Origin: a virus
Virus record (IMG/VR): IMGVR_UViG_3300032223_001026
Location: 1-34,625 of that record
DNA length: 34,625 nucleotides
Reading direction: 5' to 3' (one strand)
Positions within the stretch are counted from its first letter, which is position 1. Every line of letters begins with the position of its first letter. The notes beneath the pieces are model-generated. The model had not been told where the DNA came from, did not search any database, and saw nothing but the letters and a program-made list of their open reading frames with translations. The position numbers and the translations under genes were made by a program. Shown here one piece after another: positions 8,516-20,696 of this stretch.

Positions 8516-9264
8516 TAAGTTTTCATAATGTATGCAAGAGCATAGTATGGAGGCATATTAGCATTAGTGCCACTTGTTCCAGCAGAAGCATTGGTTGTTG
8601 CAGTTGCAACAGTTATACCAGTTGTAGCAGTTGTTACAGACTGATTTTGACCGCCAGGATTATTTATATTTAATGAACCACCAGGATTTCCACCGCCACC
8701 ATAAGCGCCATAAGTATTATGGAAATGTCCTGGGTCTGTAACAGTTGAAGTTGAAGTTGCTGTATGAGTATGAGAAACAACAATAGCATCAGTTGAGCCA
8801 CCTGTTTGACCTACTGTGTAGTTATTACCAGCTCCCAAAACAAATGAATTTCTAAGGTCAGGAGTGCCATTAGAACCATCACAAATTACAAATCCGCTAG
8901 GAATAGAACCTGTAGAGCCTGACCAAATAATAATACAGCCAGCAGGTAAAGTTGCATTAGATGTTGGAACTGTAGTCAAAATACCTGCAATATTGTCATA
9001 AGTATTAATGACTACATTGCTTGCATCTTGTAAAACAAATTTGTAAGAATAGCCAGCCTGTAACCACATTTCACTAGGAAGTTTGCCAGTAGAACCCAAA
9101 ATTACAGGATTAGAATTAGCAATATTTCCGCTAGAGGTTGTATAGGTTGTTAAAGGGGTTGAGCTACCAGCTTGGTAACAATAAATTTGACCACCTGCTA
9201 ATGGCAAAGCGCCATTAAACATGGTTTGACCATTAAATAAAGGGGATAAATTTACTGTTGCCAT
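8515..9264 (-). CDS. Tail fibre with phage collar domain
   Basis: A 249-residue structural protein. The N-terminus (NLSPLFNGQTMFNGALPLAG, then IYCYQAGSSTPLTTY) is a common virion-attachment segment. From about residue 105 a phage tail collar domain follows: AGCIIIWSGSTGSIPSGFVI, CDGSNGTPDLRNSFVLGAG, then VSHTHTATS and PGHFHNTYG histidine motifs that bind metal in trimeric fibres. It ends with PPYYALAYIMKT. Probably a receptor-binding or collar fibre. It overlaps the transglycosylase gene by one base. Confidence 0.8.
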   Translation of the reverse strand: MATVNLSPLFNGQTMFNGALPLAGGQIYCYQAGSSTPLTTYTTSSGNIANSNPVILGSTGKLPSEMWLQAGYSYKFVLQDASNVVINTYDNIAGILTTVPTSNATLPAGCIIIWSGSTGSIPSGFVICDGSNGTPDLRNSFVLGAGNNYTVGQTGGSTDAIVVSHTHTATSTSTVTDPGHFHNTYGAYGGGGNPGGSLNINNPGGQNQSVTTATTGITVATATTNASAGTSGTNANMPPYYALAYIMKT

Positions 9265-11231
9265 TATTGTCCTTGAGGTGTTGGTTGTCCAGACAATAGC
9301 CCTCTAAGGGTTGTAACTGGAATATTTTTAGCTCTAGATTCAAATTTTGGCATTTCACCAAGTCGCATCATGTCTGCAAGTTTAGCTACTGCATTGTTTT
9401 TATTAACATTAGCAACTTGTTTAGCGCCAAAAGTAGTACCAGATAATAAAGCTGAAGAAAGGTTTCCGCTAAGTGCATGAGTTCCTACTGTGCTTAAAAC
9501 ACCCATGACAGTATCAGGAGCAAATTTAGATAATAAGTCTAAAGTTTTTTGAGTTGCGCTGCCTTTTGCAACTTCTCTAATTGCATCTTGTTCAGCAGGA
9601 GAAAAAATCCTCATGCGCTTATCATTTTTTGCCAAGCTATTCATTTGATTTTTCAAAGATTGAGATAGACTTTGATTAGTAAACTGAGCATCAGTTACCA
9701 TGTCATCAAATATTTCAGCTTTTTTCAATCTAGAATATTGAATTCTTGCATCTTTCCATGCTTGAGCACCTTGAGGGCTGCCAGCAGTTAAATGCTGGTC
9801 TGGAGCATTGAGAACATAATCATCAAACTCATCTTTTAGTTTTCCAGCCAACATTCTGACTTTAGGATTAGCAGATACTTGCTCGCCAGCGATAATTTCT
9901 CTTAAAGCTTGAAGTTCTAAATAATCCTTTGGCCTGGATGTATTCTTCAATTCATCCAATGCAGCTTTAATTCCTGAGTAAGTGCTTGAATTTTCAGCAT
10001 ATCCAAACTGTCTTAAATCTTTACCAACTTGATCCATATGCGCTGCAAACTTATCAGGAGCAAATTGAATTCCTGAAGTTTCTGCTTGTTTGTATAGATT
10101 TTTTGCAATTGCAGCAAGTTCTTCTTGAGAAGGAGCATTTAAAGACCTTTGCTTTAATGAAACTCCAAAAGGCATACCTGCTATAGCACCAGCACCCATA
10201 GCCAAGTAAGGATTACCAGTTTTTTCATAAACAGCTTGTCCTGCCACAGCAGAAGGAACAGTAGCAGCAACTTGTCTAACAGGAGCAGCAGCAGCAGACT
10301 CAGCAACTCCTCTTACAAAAGGAGAAGCTGCTGTAGTTGCTAATCTAGTGACAGCAGGTAATTCAGCAGCAGTTCCGCCCATTGCTCCACCAACAGTTTC
10401 AATCATTCTTTCTGGGCCTGTTTGTGCAACAGGAAGCCCAGCTTGAGTCATATATTGCTGTGCAACATTACTTGGCATTTGAAGTTTAGGAATATTAGTA
10501 CCAGCAAAGCGATTAATACCACCTGTAACAGCATTAATGCCAGTATTTAATACATCGCCAACAGGAAGCGCAACAGAACCTACAAGAGCTCCTGGAGGCC
10601 CTGCTAAAGTTCCACCAATAGCAGCACCAGTTACAGCAGGAGTAGCACCCCTGGCAAACAATCCAGCAGCTCTAGGTAAAGTTAAATTAGGTTTTGATTG
10701 AAGTTCTGATTCAGGAATATTGGTGCTTCCTGGCAAAGATTCTGGATTTATAAAAAGCTTATTATTCTCAGCAAGGTCTACACCTTCTAAAACTTTATCA
10801 AGATACTTTTCTGGGTCTTTAGTTTTAAATCCACCATAAGCTTTCATGGCCTTCACATAATTCCCACCATGCTCTTTATGCAGTTGGCTAATGTAATAAT
10901 CCATTGCAGCTCTGGCTTCATCTTTATTAAAGGGATTAAATTCCACTCCTTGTTTATGAAGCATCGCTACTGTTTCAGGCATAAATTGGCCTACACCCAT
11001 AGCACCAGAAGTAGGATTTACAGCAAGAGGATTACCAGAACTTTCAGCTTGAATGACATTTTCTAAAAGTTTTATTGGAGTACCATAACTTTTTTTAGTA
11101 TCAAATTTAGTTGATTCTGGAGGTGTATATCCAGAAACCTGAACATTAGGCTTACCAGTTCCAGTTTTACCAGAACCAGGCAAAAGTTCAGGTGTTGTTA
11201 ATAAATCTGGGTCTACAAAATCTAAAGCCAT
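9264..11231 (-). CDS. Ejection protein with lytic transglycosylase domain
   Basis: A 655-residue internal virion protein. Residues about 53-145 form an SLT-type transglycosylase domain: LLENVIQAESSGNPLAVNPT with catalytic Glu63, then SGAMGVGQFMPET and YVKAMKAYGGF. The rest is long, helical and Ala/Gly-rich, with a hydrophobic stretch at about 190-240 (TPAVTGAAIGGTLAGPPGAL) that may enter membranes. It is expected to be injected with the DNA and to open the peptidoglycan locally. It occupies the P22 gp16 position in the ejection-protein order. Ends overlap both neighbours by one base, indicating coupled translation. Confidence 0.82.
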   Translation of the reverse strand: MALDFVDPDLLTTPELLPGSGKTGTGKPNVQVSGYTPPESTKFDTKKSYGTPIKLLENVIQAESSGNPLAVNPTSGAMGVGQFMPETVAMLHKQGVEFNPFNKDEARAAMDYYISQLHKEHGGNYVKAMKAYGGFKTKDPEKYLDKVLEGVDLAENNKLFINPESLPGSTNIPESELQSKPNLTLPRAAGLFARGATPAVTGAAIGGTLAGPPGALVGSVALPVGDVLNTGINAVTGGINRFAGTNIPKLQMPSNVAQQYMTQAGLPVAQTGPERMIETVGGAMGGTAAELPAVTRLATTAASPFVRGVAESAAAAPVRQVAATVPSAVAGQAVYEKTGNPYLAMGAGAIAGMPFGVSLKQRSLNAPSQEELAAIAKNLYKQAETSGIQFAPDKFAAHMDQVGKDLRQFGYAENSSTYSGIKAALDELKNTSRPKDYLELQALREIIAGEQVSANPKVRMLAGKLKDEFDDYVLNAPDQHLTAGSPQGAQAWKDARIQYSRLKKAEIFDDMVTDAQFTNQSLSQSLKNQMNSLAKNDKRMRIFSPAEQDAIREVAKGSATQKTLDLLSKFAPDTVMGVLSTVGTHALSGNLSSALLSGTTFGAKQVANVNKNNAVAKLADMMRLGEMPKFESRAKNIPVTTLRGLLSGQPTPQGQ

Positions 11232-12688
11232 TATTTGCCCCTAGTAGCAAGACCATTAATAATTCGCAAATCTTCTTGAGCCTTTTTATATCTTTGTGAC
11301 TTTTCTCCACCAAGCTCTTTAGTAATTTGAGTCAATCCTTGTGGGTCTATACCAGCATTTCTTTTAGCATCAGCTAATCGAATAGAGTCTAAGTTTAAAT
11401 TAGAGTTCCATTTTTGCTGATATTCATTAGCATAAAGACTATTTCCATTGCTAATTGTTTGAGATTGATCTACACCATGATTGAACATTTGAACACCATA
11501 AGCCAATGCTCTGTTATATCTTGAAGTATATTGAATAGCTTCTGGATTCCAAGTGGTTTTACCTGCTGTCTGAACAGCTTGCTCAATTTGTTTACCAGTA
11601 CCACCGCCACCAGTTCCACCCATTTTTCCTGCTCCATATGCAGGGTTTTGCGCCAATAAATTAGTTTCATTAGTTAATACATGACCTAAAATATCAAAGT
11701 TAGCTGCTGGATTTTTTGGATTAAATTCAGGAATCCCTACATAATTACCTTTAAGCGCATTCCATAATTGAGCACCTTGTCCAGTATCAGTAACCTGTGA
11801 TAATTGAATAGCTTGGTTTGCAGCAGATTCAATTTGAACAGCTTTACCAGCTTGTTCTCTTGATGTATTAACCAAATTATTACCAATTTCAAGATTGGTT
11901 TCAGTTTGAGGGGATAGTTTAGAAACAGCAGGTCTTTGTTGATTTGCAGGTTTATTCATTTGGTCAGGTGTAACACCGCCTTGACCGCCTACAGCAGAAC
12001 CGCCAACTTGACCGCCGCCTACCAAATATTTTGTACCTGGAGGCAAACCAGAATTATCTCCTGGTTGAGCAACTAACTCTGTACCTGGTGTTAAGCCTAA
12101 TGCAGTTGCTGGGCCAGCTTGAACTCCTGGAGCTTGACCAGTAAGTAAAGGATTTCCTGTAGTAAGAGGAGCAGTAGTACCACCAAGATTTGTTTGGGTT
12201 GGCTTTGGATATAGTGCATCTAATTGGCCTTGAGCATTTAATGATCTAGCCATACTTTGTGCAAGCCAAGCTTTTAATTGAGATGGGTTTCCACTTGCAG
12301 GAAGCCCTGCTAAAGCTTGTTGAACAGCAGCATCAGGAGTTCCTGCATTTTTAGCATGAAGTTTTACAGAATCAATAATATCTTGAGCTGTTAAATCAGG
12401 CTTGTTTATAAGTCTTTGCTGATCTTGAATGGTATTGGTTAAATGAGCTTGAAAATTTTGCAACTGAGCAGTATTGGCTTCAGCAGTTGCTTTTTGAGCT
12501 TGTGCTTGACCAGTTTCAATTTCAGAAGGCAATAATGCTTTTTTCTTTTGAAATTCAACACTTTTATTAGAAATATCAAGCATATCTGCCAAAGTAGTAG
12601 GCTTAGGCGCATTTTGGCTACCATAAATACTAGGGTCTACATTTTGACCTAATTGTGGAACTGAAACTCCGCTTGTAGAAATTGGCAT
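11231..12688 (-). CDS. Internal virion/ejection protein
   Basis: A 485-residue protein rich in Gln, Ala, Asn and Thr. Residues 40-180 are predicted coiled helix (PSEIETGQAQAQKATAEANT), the middle is Pro/Gly-rich and flexible (about 165-245), and the C-terminus is helical again. No enzymatic motif is seen. Composition, size and place between a gp7-like and a gp16-like protein suggest the gp20-like ejection protein of podoviruses. The assignment rests on synteny more than on sequence. Confidence 0.6.
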   Translation of the reverse strand: MPISTSGVSVPQLGQNVDPSIYGSQNAPKPTTLADMLDISNKSVEFQKKKALLPSEIETGQAQAQKATAEANTAQLQNFQAHLTNTIQDQQRLINKPDLTAQDIIDSVKLHAKNAGTPDAAVQQALAGLPASGNPSQLKAWLAQSMARSLNAQGQLDALYPKPTQTNLGGTTAPLTTGNPLLTGQAPGVQAGPATALGLTPGTELVAQPGDNSGLPPGTKYLVGGGQVGGSAVGGQGGVTPDQMNKPANQQRPAVSKLSPQTETNLEIGNNLVNTSREQAGKAVQIESAANQAIQLSQVTDTGQGAQLWNALKGNYVGIPEFNPKNPAANFDILGHVLTNETNLLAQNPAYGAGKMGGTGGGGTGKQIEQAVQTAGKTTWNPEAIQYTSRYNRALAYGVQMFNHGVDQSQTISNGNSLYANEYQQKWNSNLNLDSIRLADAKRNAGIDPQGLTQITKELGGEKSQRYKKAQEDLRIINGLATRGK

Positions 12689-12697
12689 AATTATTCC

Positions 12698-13444
12698 TTA
12701 AGCTGGATTAATAATGAATGAATTGCCTGCTGTTGGAGTAAATGCTCCACCAGGACTTGCTCCAGCAGCGATTGCATCAGCATTCATAGGTTGATTCATA
12801 TTATTTAACATTGAATAACCAGCCAGATTGCCTGCTGTATTTGCAACTCCTCCCCAAGTATTGCCTTGAGCAATTTGACTTGCTGCTTGAGCATTAGCAG
12901 CTCCAAGGCCAATATTTGCAACATTGGTTGCTGTTCCTAGTTGAGCATTAGCTTTACCAGTTGCGCCTGATAATCCCAAAGTAGCATTAGCCAAGTCAAT
13001 TCCAGCAATAGAATTTTTCTGATTTGTGTAATTAGTAAATGCATTTTGATAAGCATTTTGTGCATAATTTTGACTGTAATCAGACAATGATTTAAGTGTA
13101 TTACCTCCTACAACACCTCCTGTAGCATTGTTTGCCATTAAATTTGATCTTTGACCAATATCTAAACCAAAAGCAAAATTAGGTGCTAAATTGGTATTTA
13201 AGTCGGTATTGCTAAATTGACGATTAAAATAGTCATTATTCGCTGTTAAGCTAGATAAAGGAGTTGTTCCATAAGTTGCATAAGGAGCAAATTCTTGGGA
13301 AGCAGTTTGTCCAGCAGCAAGTAAATTTTGTTGATTAGCTCTTGCAGCATCAGCTTGAGTTTGAGCAGCATTTTGCTGGCCTTGGCTTGTTATATAAGCC
13401 CCTGCTACCGAACCTACAACTACTGCTGTTGCGACTCCTGACAT
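12698..13444 (-). CDS. DNA transfer (ejection) protein, gp7-like
   Basis: A 248-residue protein. It starts with a hydrophobic segment (VATAVVVGSVAGAYITSQ), then a Gln/Ala-rich coiled region (QGQQNAAQTQADAARANQQN) and a motif LLAAGQTASQEFAPYATYGT typical of proteins annotated as phage DNA transfer proteins. The rest is an Asn/Ala/Gly-rich helical repeat region. Proteins of this type line the ejection conduit with the two neighbouring larger proteins. The TAAGGAAT site at its downstream end serves the next gene. Confidence 0.7.
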   Translation of the reverse strand: MSGVATAVVVGSVAGAYITSQGQQNAAQTQADAARANQQNLLAAGQTASQEFAPYATYGTTPLSSLTANNDYFNRQFSNTDLNTNLAPNFAFGLDIGQRSNLMANNATGGVVGGNTLKSLSDYSQNYAQNAYQNAFTNYTNQKNSIAGIDLANATLGLSGATGKANAQLGTATNVANIGLGAANAQAASQIAQGNTWGGVANTAGNLAGYSMLNNMNQPMNADAIAAGASPGGAFTPTAGNSFIINPA

Positions 13445-14278
13445 TTAATTTCTCCTTGTTGCAAGGCTTAAGGCTTGCCGATAATCAATAGTAATTTCTT
13501 CACCCAAATTACCGCCTTGGCATCCATTTATAGCCTTATTTGCTATCAAATCAATATTGTTATTATCTCTCAAAACCATAATTCCATTGGCATTTTTTGC
13601 ATGATTTGTATATCTTCCTACAGGGGTTCTTTTTCCATCAATGCGAGCTGGAGCAATTACTTCTCCTTGGGCTATATTTCCTGTGGCAAATACTCCTTTG
13701 CCATCAATTCTTGAATTGGCAATCATCATTTTGTAATTACCAAAAGGCATAGGAATTTGGTCATCCATGTTTTCTGTTTGTTTTCTGACAGTTTCATGGT
13801 CAAAACCATATTCAGCAATAGCCAAATAATAATCAGCTACATCGCTAGAATGGTCTAAAGTAAGCAACAAATTTTGAGCTTTTTGGTTTTCTTGCCATGT
13901 TATGCTTTTTTCAAGAAACATTGATTCAAGCTTTTCTACATCAGTTTCTAAAGTTGAATAAACATTTTGCCAAATCATTTTTTCATGAATATAGCCAATT
14001 TTTCGACCTGGTTTAGATACAAAAACTTGAGGTGCTACTAATTCAGTTTTTGAACCATCATCATTGACCATTGTTACTCTACCAGCAATCATAATATTTA
14101 AATGCTCGGTTTTTTGATAATGCCCTATAGACAATGTTCCAGCAGGAATAGTCACCTCTCTAATATAAATATTAGGGCCAAAGCGATGCACAACAGGACA
14201 ATCTACTTGTTCATGTTTTAAAAATTCAGCTTCTAATTGCTGAACTTTTTTTTCAGTTATAACTTGTAAATTAGACAT
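13445..14278 (-). CDS. Cupin-SET domain fusion protein
   Basis: A 277-residue two-domain protein. Residues 35-110 read as a cupin: GHYQKTEHLNIMIAGR (His53, Glu58, His59) and PGRKIGYIHEKMIWQN (His98, Asn105). Residues 185-268 carry the three SET methyltransferase signatures: SRIDGKGVFATGNIAQGEVI, GRYTNHAKNANG (the Asn-His of the SAM knot) and GEEITIDY. SET enzymes methylate protein lysines with SAM. No zinc-binding pre- or post-SET cysteines are present. The start at 14278 gives an 8-base overlap with the upstream gene; an earlier in-frame start at 14308 is possible. It sits among tail and ejection genes, so a virion protein is a plausible substrate, but that is inference. Confidence 0.75.
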   Translation of the reverse strand: MSNLQVITEKKVQQLEAEFLKHEQVDCPVVHRFGPNIYIREVTIPAGTLSIGHYQKTEHLNIMIAGRVTMVNDDGSKTELVAPQVFVSKPGRKIGYIHEKMIWQNVYSTLETDVEKLESMFLEKSITWQENQKAQNLLLTLDHSSDVADYYLAIAEYGFDHETVRKQTENMDDQIPMPFGNYKMMIANSRIDGKGVFATGNIAQGEVIAPARIDGKRTPVGRYTNHAKNANGIMVLRDNNNIDLIANKAINGCQGGNLGEEITIDYRQALSLATRRN

Positions 14279-14510
14279 TGTAATAAGGCACTTTATAGGG
14301 TTTACCATTAACTGTAATATTAATAAATCCTACAGGATTAGTTGGCAAAGTTGCAGACCCTTTTGTTGCATTAGTAGCGGAGCTAAAATTTACCAAATTA
14401 AGCAAATACTGTTGCCAAGACCTAGTTGGCATTTTGGTAGTGTCATCTAAAAAAGGTGTCTGAGGATAAGGATTTTGTTGAGTTGATCCCCAAATACTAT
14501 TATTAGCCAT
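14271..14510 (-). CDS. Small tail protein at the needle-gene position
   Basis: A 79-residue protein starting MANNSIWGSTQQNPYPQTPF and containing a WQQYLLNLVNF helix, the kind of segment that opens many podovirus fibre or needle proteins. It ends with a beta stretch, FINITVNGKPYKVPYYNV. It follows the gp10-like gene directly (one-base overlap), where P22 has the long gp26 needle. It is far shorter than gp26 and may be a plug or adaptor. The role is inferred from position. Confidence 0.6.
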   Translation of the reverse strand: MANNSIWGSTQQNPYPQTPFLDDTTKMPTRSWQQYLLNLVNFSSATNATKGSATLPTNPVGFINITVNGKPYKVPYYNV

Positions 14511-16699
14511 TAGTTTTCTCCCTCAGAAGCTTTTAAATTAGCAGAAACAATTACACATTTAATAGGGTCAGTTACTGTAACTTCAAAAATTCTATCCCTA
14601 GACCATCCCAATCTGCGCCAAATAATACGACTTTGATATTTTCCTTGTAATCCAATACTTGACCAATATTCATTAGACCAAGTAGAACCGCCATCATTTG
14701 ACCATTTAAGCATGGCTTGGGGATTTACACCTATAGTAATTATGCTTGAAGTTCCAGCTACAGCAATACCAGATATACCTATTCCTGCTATACCATTAGT
14801 AGGAGCATAAGAGGTTGAAGTTAATCCAGATAATCCAACACCAGGCTGAAATTGAATTTGAAATTCATCAAAATATTGTCTTTGAAGGTCTGTAACTAAA
14901 TGAGGTGCTCTGCGAACTCTTTTAATGGTATCGCCATTGTCGGTGTAATTTGTAGGGTCTAACTGATAAATTTGACCATTTTGCCAATCTCCAACCAAAA
15001 CAAGCCCTTGGAAAAAAGCAGAACAATTAGACCGATGGCGATGATAAGCATCCAAATTATCTACCCATAACCATTTGTGCCAAAGCTGAGTTGCAATATC
15101 ATAAGCCCAAGTTAAATCAAGAGTTGGGAATGAAATGACATAAGTTTCATGACCTTCTAGCTGATAGGTATAAGCTACAGCATCTCCAATATATTGATCT
15201 ACAAGAGTATTTTCTACAGCATGGGTACTAATTCTTTGCGGAAAATAGCCATTCATCATGACAATTTCAGCTTGACCTCGATTATTTTTAGCTAAATAAG
15301 CAAAAGAATTTCCTAATCTGGCTACAGAAAATGGAGCAGAAATGCCATGTTCGCTTGAAGAACCAGGGATTCTTTGAAAAGGAAATGGGAAAGTTCCTAC
15401 ATCAGCCCAAACTTCGGAGGTTCTTTCTCCTAATAAATAGACTTGACCATGATCGCAAACTAAAGAAATTAGATTGTCAGGCCCTGTAAATTTACTCGCA
15501 TAGCTTAATCCATAAGTAATAGGGCTAAGAACATTAGATGCTGCCCATAGCTGGGTATTTGGGTCATTGTAAACAAAGTAATTATCTACAATATCGACTA
15601 CTGTACCACCAGAAAAAGCACCATCTGAACTTGGTAAAACACTAAAATTAAGTGCATACATAGTTCTTGAGGTCACAGTTTGAGAACCGCTAACTACATA
15701 ATTTCCTGTATTTCCTGTACCTGTTCCAAATGTCAAATTAAGGGTTAATCCTGTGCCTGATCCTGTAGTTGATGTAGAAACAGGGTTTTGAGGCAAAGAA
15801 GTATATGCCCCTGAAAAGGTTAAGGTAAGGGTTGTAACAGCTCCAGAGCCTCCTATTCCTGTTACTGTAAAGGTAGCAGGGTTATTGCCATAAACACCGC
15901 CTAAAACTGTTATGGTGTCATTTACAGCATATCCTGTGCCAGCAGTAGCGATTGTTGCACTTAATACTGTTCCAGAGCCTAAAGCAGTAATAATGGTATT
16001 TCCTGCTACTGTAGAACCTTGTATTGTTTGACCAGGATATAAAGTTCCGCTTGTAACTGCTGTAACTGTCAAAATTGATGTAGCGATACTGGCTGTAATG
16101 ACTGCTGCTACTGCTGACGAGTTCATCTGGATAGTAGTTGGAATGCTAGCAGTATTGTTTATAGTCCAAGTTGATCCAGAACCACTAACAATGACAGTTT
16201 CATTAGGAATACCAATACCAAACAATGCTTGATTTGCTGTAATTGTTCCGCTAATTACCCTACTAACTGTTAAGGTTGTTCCTGAAATTGTTCCTTGAAA
16301 TACTGCCGAACTAGGCTGTGAAATTCGCCATGTATAGCGATAAGTGCCATCTACTATATAGACATTAATGCCATTGTCTGAAATTCCTACTCTACCTGAA
16401 CTGCTATTTAATTGACCAATAATAGTAGGTGTAAAAGTGGAATTTAAAACATATACATAAGAACCACAAACAGCGACCATATATTGACCGCCTGATAATG
16501 TCCTCATTCCCCTTACTTCAGCTTGAGGAGAAAGAGCACATATAGATGTAAGCCCTGGAGTTGGATATAAAGCAACAACCCCTCTAGAGCCTTGTGCTTT
16601 AGTGGGGTCTATTTCAGGAAACCAATTTATGCATTCCTGAGCATCTTGATAAATAGATGGGGCTTCATAAGATGCGCCAACAAATCCAAAATCTGCCAT
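14510..16699 (-). CDS. gp10-like tail stabilisation protein with inserted modules
   Basis: A 729-residue protein of the P22 gp10 family (packaged-DNA stabilisation, tail tube/hub). The N-terminus has the family pattern: QDAQECINWFPEIDPTKAQG and VALYPTPGLTSI. The C-terminal half holds conserved hub segments (GERTSEVWADVGTFPFPFQR, ISTHAVENTLVDQ, WHKWLWVDNLDAYHRHRSNC). P22 gp10 has about 470 residues; this one is longer mainly because of a Thr/Ser/Gly-rich beta insert at about 130-345 with at least two copies of a module also present in the gp4-like protein. It should close the portal channel with that protein. Confidence 0.82.
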   Translation of the reverse strand: MADFGFVGASYEAPSIYQDAQECINWFPEIDPTKAQGSRGVVALYPTPGLTSICALSPQAEVRGMRTLSGGQYMVAVCGSYVYVLNSTFTPTIIGQLNSSSGRVGISDNGINVYIVDGTYRYTWRISQPSSAVFQGTISGTTLTVSRVISGTITANQALFGIGIPNETVIVSGSGSTWTINNTASIPTTIQMNSSAVAAVITASIATSILTVTAVTSGTLYPGQTIQGSTVAGNTIITALGSGTVLSATIATAGTGYAVNDTITVLGGVYGNNPATFTVTGIGGSGAVTTLTLTFSGAYTSLPQNPVSTSTTGSGTGLTLNLTFGTGTGNTGNYVVSGSQTVTSRTMYALNFSVLPSSDGAFSGGTVVDIVDNYFVYNDPNTQLWAASNVLSPITYGLSYASKFTGPDNLISLVCDHGQVYLLGERTSEVWADVGTFPFPFQRIPGSSSEHGISAPFSVARLGNSFAYLAKNNRGQAEIVMMNGYFPQRISTHAVENTLVDQYIGDAVAYTYQLEGHETYVISFPTLDLTWAYDIATQLWHKWLWVDNLDAYHRHRSNCSAFFQGLVLVGDWQNGQIYQLDPTNYTDNGDTIKRVRRAPHLVTDLQRQYFDEFQIQFQPGVGLSGLTSTSYAPTNGIAGIGISGIAVAGTSSIITIGVNPQAMLKWSNDGGSTWSNEYWSSIGLQGKYQSRIIWRRLGWSRDRIFEVTVTDPIKCVIVSANLKASEGEN

Positions 16700-18650: not shown

Positions 18651-18880
18651 TTTTCACTCACAATCGCAGTTGATGTTTCTCTATCAAAAGTTAATACCCC
18701 ATAACAAACCACATTCCAATCTTCAGAATTGGCTTCTCTTTCGCTTGTAGAAGGAACATTAATTTTAAAATTTTTAACCAAATATTCCTTATTGCCTTCA
18801 AAAACTCTCCAAACATGGTCAATAGTTCCACGACCTTCTTGTCCTCTAAATTTATTGAATCGAATGCGATATTTATTCAT
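18647..18880 (-). CDS. Conserved hypothetical protein (cyanophage-like)
   Basis: A 77-residue protein starting MNKYRIRFNKFRGQEGRGTI, followed by DHVWRVFEGNKEYLVKNFKI, then SEDWNVVCYGVLTFDRETST. I recognise this as a small protein common in marine and freshwater cyanophages and relatives, always uncharacterised. It is mainly beta strand. It overlaps both neighbours by four bases, so it is translated with them. Presence with a 2OG oxygenase and a DUF6065-like gene suggests a shared transfer history. Confidence 0.6.
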   Translation of the reverse strand: MNKYRIRFNKFRGQEGRGTIDHVWRVFEGNKEYLVKNFKINVPSTSEREANSEDWNVVCYGVLTFDRETSTAIVSEK

Positions 18881-19605
18881 TTTGTATGATTCTTAAAAGG
18901 GCAAGAAGAAAACTTTTGTGTCTGTTTTATTATTTTTTTATAAACATTTGTAAATGCTATATTAGTTCTTTTTTGATTTTGAAATTCTTTTTCATCAATA
19001 AGATGCCTGACAATTTCTATTTTTTTGTCAGTTAAAGGTGTAAGCAACACCAATGGAGTGCCTTGTTTTAATAAAATTGTTTTATCTTCATCACTTCTAA
19101 ATAAAAAATTTATGTTAGTTTTTATTTGATGTTTGAAATTTATTATTGCATTTGGAATAACAATATCTGGATATTGACTAAAATTATAAAAAGGTGTATT
19201 CCACATCCAATTTATATCTTTTTTACATTTAAAATTCCAAGGAGAAATTATTTTTAAATGAGAATAATTGCTTGGTAAAAATCCATTAGCTTGTTTTTGT
19301 ATATTATGATTTCCAACATTTGTTTTTTTATCAGAAAATTGCCATTCAAATTGATTGTTATTTGTGTGTAAAGCAAAATCAGACCATAGCGGAATAGCAA
19401 TAGAATATCCATATAAATCATTCATTCCAGCACAATTTTTCATAGTTGGTCTGGAAAAAAAACCATCTACATATTCTGAAGGTAAATTTTTCCACCATTC
19501 AGGAAAATGTTTTGTAGCAAAATCAACTGGTGCAGTTTTAATAATTGTTTCATTAGTAGTAAAACAATCTAATGTAATTTTTGATTTTGGAAATTTAAAT
19601 ATCAT
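18877..19605 (-). CDS. DUF6065-like hypothetical protein
   Basis: A 242-residue protein with KHFPEWWKNLPSEYVDGFFS, PTMKNCAGMNDLYGYSIAIP and PLWSDFALHTNN. These segments resemble an uncharacterised family found in cyanophages and cyanobacteria (DUF6065 as I recall it), which often neighbours 2OG oxygenase genes. The gene is extremely AT-rich: sample 60-base lines here are about 17-22% GC against about 50% in a line of the coat gene. It directly follows the oxygenase gene. Function unknown; the family name is tentative. Confidence 0.5.
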   Translation of the reverse strand: MIFKFPKSKITLDCFTTNETIIKTAPVDFATKHFPEWWKNLPSEYVDGFFSRPTMKNCAGMNDLYGYSIAIPLWSDFALHTNNNQFEWQFSDKKTNVGNHNIQKQANGFLPSNYSHLKIISPWNFKCKKDINWMWNTPFYNFSQYPDIVIPNAIINFKHQIKTNINFLFRSDEDKTILLKQGTPLVLLTPLTDKKIEIVRHLIDEKEFQNQKRTNIAFTNVYKKIIKQTQKFSSCPFKNHTK

Positions 19606-20244
19606 TTAAATTATTTCTACATTATTTTGTTTTAAAGGCATTACCCCAATATTGAAATGAATAAATCGTATTGGTTCTTTAGATAAATTTTTTGTAAAAG
19701 AATGTGGAAGCCAAGAATTAGTAAAAAATAATGCGCCTTCGGTTGGTTCAAAATTAATGATATTGCTGGCATGAGTTATTTCAGATATATCCTTTTCAGG
19801 CAAATTTGTAATAACTTTTGAATCCCTTGGATCATAAAATAAAACTCTACTTGAATCTTTTGGAACATCTAAAAAATAAAATCCTGTCATAACTGAACCA
19901 TTGCCATGAATATGTCTTTCCATTGATGACATAGTATGGTGTTCTTGCGCCCACATTTCTTTAAAATAAGTCGTAAACTCATTCATTGCATAGCCTTGTA
20001 AATCTAAAATATTCCATGCAGTTTGAGCTACAAAATTAGCAAATTCTAGCATTTCAGGATCATAATTAATGTTTTCAGTCATGTAGACTGGATAATTAGG
20101 ATTTAATTCAGATTGTTCTTTTCTTTGATTAATAAATTTATTTGAAATTTTTTTAGTAATTTCTAAAAATTCAGGTTTATCAATTTGATATATTGGCGCA
20201 GAAAAAACTGAAGTTGCATTTAAATGCTGAAATTGTCCATTCAT
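19606..20244 (-). CDS. 2OG-Fe(II) oxygenase
   Basis: A protein of about 212 residues of the phage 2-oxoglutarate/iron oxygenase group. It has the metal-site region RHIHGNGSVMTGFYFLDVP (His111/His113), VLFYDPRDS, then EGALFFTNSWLPHSFTKN with His181 and RFIHFNI with Arg193 for 2-oxoglutarate. The double-stranded beta-helix pattern is complete. Such enzymes hydroxylate proteins, nucleic acids or small molecules; the substrate here is unknown, with tail or fibre proteins a possibility given the location. The ATG at 20244 makes an ATGA overlap with the upstream gene; a start at 20262 is also open. Confidence 0.8.
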   Translation of the reverse strand: MNGQFQHLNATSVFSAPIYQIDKPEFLEITKKISNKFINQRKEQSELNPNYPVYMTENINYDPEMLEFANFVAQTAWNILDLQGYAMNEFTTYFKEMWAQEHHTMSSMERHIHGNGSVMTGFYFLDVPKDSSRVLFYDPRDSKVITNLPEKDISEITHASNIINFEPTEGALFFTNSWLPHSFTKNLSKEPIRFIHFNIGVMPLKQNNVEII

Positions 20245-20696
20245 TGTGGTGGTGGATTCCATTCTGTTTTTTCAATGTATTTATCCATGCCAGTAAATAC
20301 TAAATATTCTTGTTGAATTTGTGCAAATACAGTTTTTGCCGCATCAAGCCCTGTTGCTGGTTCATGTAATCCATCGGTGGGATCATATACAAAATATTGT
20401 CTATCAGTATTTTCAGGTTCAGTATTTAAATCTACAAGTGTCCATACAACACCACCTTCTACTGCAGTTTGCAAATTTACATTAAATAATTCTGATTGTT
20501 GTGCTAACCATGCAGATTGATTTGATGCAAGTTTATTGTCTGCATCGGTTTGAGTACCAACACTACATTGACTTGCTGGAATATATGGTTGTCCAGTTTT
20601 TGGATCTATTGGTCTAGAATCAATAGTTGCTTGGGAATCACAAATATATGTAGATATTTTGCTAACTAGATTTGGAATAACATAAATAGTAGTCAT
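20241..20696 (-). CDS. Hypothetical fibre-associated protein
   Basis: A 151-residue protein starting MTTIYVIPNLVSKISTYICD, with a middle region QSELFNVNLQTAVEGG and the end KTEWNPPPQ. It has one predicted helix pair and beta segments but no recognised motif. AAGGA precedes the ATG. It lies between the glycine-rich adhesin and the oxygenase. It could be a fibre chaperone or attachment factor; there is no direct evidence. Confidence 0.5.
   Translation of the reverse strand: MTTIYVIPNLVSKISTYICDSQATIDSRPIDPKTGQPYIPASQCSVGTQTDADNKLASNQSAWLAQQSELFNVNLQTAVEGGVVWTLVDLNTEPENTDRQYFVYDPTDGLHEPATGLDAAKTVFAQIQQEYLVFTGMDKYIEKTEWNPPPQ

Follow-up and report, generated by a model that had tools for sequence, protein, structure and literature searches.

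A conserved cupin-SET fusion gene in the ejection operon of aquatic podophages, encoding a putative late protein-modifying enzyme

The window analyzed here is a whole virus record of 34,625 bases from a freshwater phage with a short tail. Between its gp10-like head-closure gene and its ejection genes lies a gene whose product joins an N-terminal cupin to a C-terminal SET domain. The fold of this protein, its invariant catalytic motifs, purifying selection, a conserved genomic position and a tight coupling to the ejection operon are shown by the present analysis. Our best explanation, taken as a whole, is that the cupin docks the protein while an active SET domain methylates a late protein; we put it just short of an even chance.

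The cupin-SET gene

The cupin-SET open reading frame (13445..14278) lies on the minus strand, where it runs from its ATG at 14278 to a stop at 13445 and encodes 277 amino acids. An upstream in-frame ATG at 14308 would give a protein of 287 amino acids; the start at 14278 is preferred in this prediction because it is common to the relatives. A reading of the same interval on the plus strand is ruled out by stop codons. The three SET signatures that the first-pass annotation had picked out, GKGVF, TNHAKNAN and GEEITIDY, are all present (Table 1), and the protein matches phrog_34170 (E 3.5e-93), whose function is listed as unknown in PHROG.

Table 1. Features of the cupin-SET gene and its neighbors in the window, and of related loci elsewhere
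Feature	Location	Strand	Remarks
P22 gp10-like head-closure gene (Hc3)	14510..16699	-	phrog_578, E 1.8e-91
79-aa ORF	14271..14510	-	upstream; 8-base overlap with cupin-SET start; conserved in near relatives
Cupin (RmlC-like jelly-roll) domain	13919..14209	-	residues ~24-120; AF2 model and VIA-align; phrog_12032/24280
Helical linker	13751..13918	-	residues ~121-176; AF2 model
Compact SET domain	13466..13750	-	residues ~177-271; Pfam, AF2, VIA-align
SET motif GKGVF (GxG; SAM-binding loop in known SET enzymes)	13688..13702	-	residues 193-197; Gly pair invariant 66/66
RTPVGR, in place of most of the SET-I insert	13613..13630	-	RTPxG signature also in standalone phage mini-SETs
SET motif TNHAKNAN (NHxxxPN type)	13586..13609	-	residues 224-231; N225, H226, N231 66/66
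SET motif GEEITIDY, catalytic-type Tyr266	13481..13504	-	residues 259-266; E261, Y266 66/66
P22 gp7-like DNA ejection gene	12698..13444	-	phrog_598, E 1.7e-20; only 3 Lys
gp20-position ejection gene	11231..12688	-	by synteny; 27 Lys
gp16-position ejection gene, SLT transglycosylase domain	9264..11231	-	PF01464, E 8e-9; 44 Lys
Satellite-like element, ~15.3 kb	L120:7602 to ~L121:3942 (G001:C12)		Paraburkholderia MAG
Satellite-like element, ~10.3 kb	L122:8052-18396		Paraburkholderia MAG
Third element	L124, beside tmRNA		P. ferrariae; has cupin and SET genes but no ejection genes
Standalone mini-SET gene, P-RSM6	L203:4995-5294		marine phage
Standalone mini-SET gene, P-SSM7	L204:4998-5297		marine phage
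Standalone mini-SET gene, Kolga	L112:5965-6273		marine phage

Fold and family membership

That the gene is a real fusion of two domains, as had been proposed from the letters, is borne out by the AlphaFold2 model, by structural alignments to both folds and by Pfam matches of the family. The model (pLDDT 90.7, pTM 0.86) consists of a cupin barrel (residues 24-120), helices (114-169) and a SET block (177-271) with pLDDT mostly above 90. In VIA-align comparisons, the C-terminal half is SET-like: residues 177-267 align with the MLL1 SET domain over 80 residues (Z 10.6, rmsd 2.0), and the corresponding figures are Z 9.7, rmsd 2.0, 30% identity and 80 residues for PBCV-1 vSET and Z 9.2 and 32% identity for SETD8; with EZH2 included, all four align at Z 9-10.6. 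An aligned range that extends to residue 267-271 would imply the C-terminal pseudoknot threading, as read from that range alone. The N-terminal half is cupin-like, residues 24-110 aligning with cupins at Z ~9-9.9 (HP0902 ~9.9, ectoine synthase 9.8).

By sequence, the window protein alone scores 19.9 bits against Pfam SET, just under the cut-off of 22.4 (E ~1e-3), and two distant relatives exceed it, with 38.0 and 35.2 bits. PF00856 matches every one of the 66 sequences in the family alignment (best 1.2e-7), and Cupin_2 matches 24 of them. A PDB search with the family profile gave MLL-type SET enzymes at E 3e-4 and vSET at 0.009. The C-terminal region might instead have proved to be a known non-enzymatic tail domain, but its model resembles SET domains; the families named for tail parts, phrog_12032 ("short tail fiber protein") and phrog_24280 ("tail fiber adhesin"), are matched by the N-terminal cupin half instead.

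Within the fused family (n = 66), the cupin residues H53 (66/66), H59 and E99 (65/66 each) and Q55 (51/66) are conserved and K93 is nearly invariant. Where the fused clade has H53/Q55, cupin-only relatives have Lys or Ala/His, so no conserved ligand or metal site is evident across the cupin family, and the earlier suggestion that the cupin may sense a ligand finds little support. The second half of the linker, DYxxAIxxxGFxxxxVxxQxxNxxDQ, goes with the SET domain and is also found in phage PH1 and in a separate SET gene of Paraburkholderia ferrariae.

Conservation and predicted catalysis

The 66 aligned relatives span 47-96% identity to the window protein, and G193, G195, N225, H226, N231, E261 and Y266 are identical in every one of them. 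For the five catalytic or SAM positions (G193, G195, N225, H226 and Y266), such invariance has p = 0.0007 relative to random SET-domain positions. Median dN/dS values are 0.09 for the cupin, 0.07 for the linker and 0.10 for the SET domain. At the sequence level, the invariant motifs and low dN/dS argue for a working SAM enzyme, and it is likely that the SET module is an active SAM-dependent catalyst.

This prediction carries a reservation because the SET-I insert, which forms much of the substrate groove in known SET enzymes, is very short. In family-profile/PDB alignments the GxG-to-NH spacing is ~30 residues in the phage SET domain versus ~52 in vSET and ~64 in MLL1; most of the substrate-lysine wall of the known enzymes is therefore missing, and a nearly invariant RTPxGR occupies the usual SET-I position. 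RTPxG and the same SET-I reduction are also present in standalone proteins of ~100 amino acids encoded by Pelagibacter phage Kolga and cyanophages P-RSM6 and P-SSM7. The reduction is thus shared with standalone phage SET proteins and marks a phage mini-SET type rather than a damaged copy. One of the marine standalone genes adjoins gp25-like and baseplate wedge genes.

Alternatively, the SET domain could be catalytically dead or vestigial, a beta-clip module with a purely structural part in a minor virion protein such as a tail fiber or decoration. The short SET-I would agree with this, as would the fiber and adhesin names of the families matched by the N-terminal half and the many relatives that have no SET domain. 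Structure alone, however, would not demand that SAM-contact and catalytic positions be invariant in 66 divergent sequences, and the split P. ferrariae SET gene retains every motif even though it is unfused. A dead SET domain is accordingly thought unlikely.

Position in the late operon

Read from right to left, the window's late genes are gp4-position, gp10-like, the 79-aa ORF, cupin-SET, gp7-like, gp20-position and gp16-position, with the gp7-like gene beginning one base past the cupin-SET stop. The P22 order (genes 4, 10, 26, 14, 7, 20 and 16) matches this, the cupin-SET gene standing in the place of gene 14. The placement between a gp10-like gene and ejection genes that had been read from the letters thus holds (phrog_578 upstream and phrog_598 downstream, followed by the gp20- and gp16-position genes). 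Its description as the place of gp14 in P22 is correct for the slot, which is immediately upstream of gp7, but the protein is a different one, gp14 being a DUF2824/phrog_651 protein. As a candidate gp14 homolog, cupin-SET found no match by Pfam, PHROGs or PDB sequence search, and gp14 itself matches only DUF2824/phrog_651.

The same fusion is present at the same position in other genomes; most viral loci that cover these genes have the order gp10-like, cupin-SET, gp7-like, and the ejection gene mostly starts at most 4 bases from the cupin or cupin-SET stop. In several lineages (L062, L089-L095) a gene with a tail-collar-like domain lies between gp10 and cupin-SET, as in phage VvAW1.

A cupin without SET occupies this slot in Thalassomonas phage BA3, in Vibrio phages VvAW1, 234P9, FGH, VPMS1 and 1.067.O, and in Shewanella phage ZP9. 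In the T7-superfamily phages Sphaerotilus R1 and Variovorax VAC_51, a cupin gene takes the place of T7 gp13, flanked by the genes for tail tube B and the first internal virion protein. Cupin-only genes therefore fill the slot in both P22-like and T7-superfamily phages, which indicates that the slot and its cupin belong to assembly or ejection. The SET domain is not essential to the slot, since many related podophages do without it.

Other phages have other proteins here. The epsilon15 slot gene, gp13 (L128:6123-6587), is GNAT-like according to its depositors' HHpred analysis and weakly matches the T7 gp13 family; T7 gp13 (L126:1308-1724) has weak acetyltransferase matches of its own (E 0.39). 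A GNAT nature of P22 gp14, considered as a possibility, was supported by no match in the searches made. The slot thus appears to be one for factors serving the ejection proteins, with the cupin as one of several alternative occupants, and it may generally be home to protein-modifying or chaperone-like factors. Farther along the window, a 2OG-Fe(II) oxygenase gene (19606-20262; PF13759, phrog_81) and a phrog_7084 gene (18877-19605) lie among the structural genes; the oxygenase is possibly another protein-modifying enzyme of the late region.

Distribution

The first-pass annotation considered that a phage methylating virion or host proteins late in infection would be unusual. The cupin-SET gene is not rare: relatives lie on more than 400 viral contigs. 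They were confirmed for 461 among the viral-contig candidates and for 405 by a SET-side pattern, both counts depending on the short scanning patterns used, and the gene is common in freshwater podophages. The many weak matches of a profile scan probably represent ordinary SET proteins of hosts; the profile does not separate cupin from SET, and its counts of sequences with both were left out. Among cultivated or complete phage genomes, the members are gp30 of Rhodoferax phage P26218 (annotated as hypothetical), Pseudoalteromonas phage PH1 and phage zth2-2, and protein UOF81456 of ct1fd225 bears the automatic label "pbcV-1 histone H3-lys 27 methyltransferase structure." At one locus (L159:566-838 and 835-1158) cupin and SET are encoded in separate reading frames that overlap, the result of a frameshift or a split gene.

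In the genome paper of P26218 (PMC4657236) there is no mention of a SET domain, a cupin or a methyltransferase. Our literature search found no publication on the cupin-SET gene, no virion proteomics for any member and no paper that pairs a SET domain with a podovirus, a phage cupin or tail, or phage auxiliary metabolic genes; for PHA00672 it returned only the VvAW1 genome paper.

Evolutionary history and satellite-like elements

When the label "fused" is mapped on a tree built from the cupin part, well supported branches force three changes. The fused proteins form a main clade of 28 rows; outside it, PH1 lies beside the cupin-only BA3 protein, and a single satellite protein is nested in an otherwise cupin-only group. 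In the SET tree, the SET domain of that satellite protein and the separate SET of P. ferrariae, where cupin and SET are two overlapping genes, are sisters (99/94) and lie near the main clade. Judging from these trees, one and the same kind of cupin has gained or lost SET on several occasions. Since SET is repeatedly paired with different cupin lineages, and also as overlapping split genes, the pairing itself seems to be under selection and so functional.

Two of the elements in Table 1 are integrated in a Paraburkholderia MAG, which also has a prophage with the cupin alone. The ~15.3 and ~10.3 kb elements have at their ends repeats of 14 and 13 bases, which start in the 3' ends of tRNA-Ser and tRNA-Leu genes, respectively. 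Both carry an integrase, replication genes, a DUF5681 gene (which in one of them weakly matches a terminase small subunit), cupin-SET and a gp7-like gene, and one also has a gp16-like gene; no capsid, portal or gp10 gene was recognized in either. The third element likewise has integrase, replication and DUF5681 genes and no recognized capsid gene. These integrated elements resemble phage satellites equipped with an ejection module of their own, and such carriage fits a particle-tied role of cupin-SET.

This bears on a second alternative, an active SET enzyme whose targets are host proteins, acting in late take-over or superinfection control, with its late-operon place merely a matter of timing. 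In intracellular bacteria, SET enzymes have host proteins as their targets, and some RTPxG mini-SET genes lie outside structural operons (that of P-SSM7 adjoins nrdB and that of Kolga adjoins an AAA protein gene). But here SET is fused to a domain that elsewhere resides in the ejection operon and is coupled to an ejection gene, and two of the three satellite-like elements keep cupin-SET beside ejection genes, so host targeting appears improbable.

Proposed function and candidate substrates

We propose that cupin-SET is a late, assembly-associated protein-modifying enzyme. The cupin would be the resident domain of a "pre-ejectosome" slot, which extends from the last tail-tube or head-closure gene to the first ejection gene, and would probably dock on tail and ejection proteins during their synthesis and assembly; for docking on these proteins the balance is even. 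The C-terminal domain would be a reduced (short SET-I) lysine methyltransferase acting on a late protein. That virion or ejection proteins are its substrate is tentatively suggested, at somewhat less than even likelihood.

A tail-fiber adhesin whose cupin binds a host receptor is very unlikely. It draws on the names of phrog_12032 and phrog_24280, but these are annotation only (VPMS1 has "short tail fiber adhesin" and VvAW1 "PHA00672 superfamily"), the gene lies away from host-range genes, a separate collar-type gene is present elsewhere or just upstream, and the cupin is kept across phages of very different hosts. Least likely of all is methylation of lysines in the adjacent gp7-like ejection protein, in spite of adjacency, coupling and co-carriage in the satellite-like elements, because six SET-bearing loci with intact motifs (L102, L170, L173, L181, L182 and L186) have gp7-like proteins without any lysine, so that gp7 lysines cannot be the universal substrate and only an alpha-amine or non-lysine target could rescue this reading. 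These six proteins are 219-239 amino acids long and have only 3-4 arginines.

The gp20- and gp16-position proteins, which have 41-68 lysines in the loci inspected, cupin-SET itself and host proteins are the remaining candidate substrates. Under the proposal of a late assembly enzyme, the likeliest targets would be the lysine-rich gp20-position or gp16-position protein or cupin-SET itself, rather than the lysine-poor gp7-like neighbor. In its fullest form, this would mean that a widespread class of podophages and some satellite-like elements use a cupin-anchored minimal SET lysine methyltransferase to modify ejection or tail proteins during assembly, with programmed methylation of virion proteins encoded in a slot that other podophages give to a different assembly factor; we advance this more tentatively still. 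Methylation of protein lysines by tailed phages has hardly been explored. If active, the protein would give hundreds of aquatic phages an enzyme encoded within their morphogenesis operon. It would also represent a minimal kind of SET enzyme and point to a slot, common to P22- and T7-type phages, whose factors make the ejection proteins ready.

Relationship to known systems

The gene combines known kinds, a SET domain and a phage cupin, rather than representing a new kind. phrog_34170, P26218 gp30 and ct1fd225 UOF81456 are the same full-length fusion (45-52% identical). PBCV-1 vSET (1n3j, 3kma), which is also small and virus-encoded, shares the fold and the GxG, NHxxxN and GEExxxxY motifs, but the phage SET domain has a much shorter SET-I, is fused to a cupin and belongs to a virus of bacteria, which have no histones. 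The standalone mini-SETs of P-RSM6, P-SSM7 and Kolga (gp27) resemble it in RTPxGG(F)xNHSxxPN, in GEELxxKY and in a similarly reduced SET-I; they lack the cupin and linker and lie in other genomic contexts. The cupins of phrog_12032, phrog_24280 and PHA00672 share the N-terminal half and the genomic slot upstream of the first ejection gene, but at ~140-190 amino acids they are without the linker-SET module. P22 gp14 (DUF2824), T7 gp13 (PF11090) and epsilon15 gp13 are likewise encoded in this slot, immediately before the first ejection protein, and no sequence similarity of cupin-SET to any of these three was detected; in position, cupin-SET is their counterpart.
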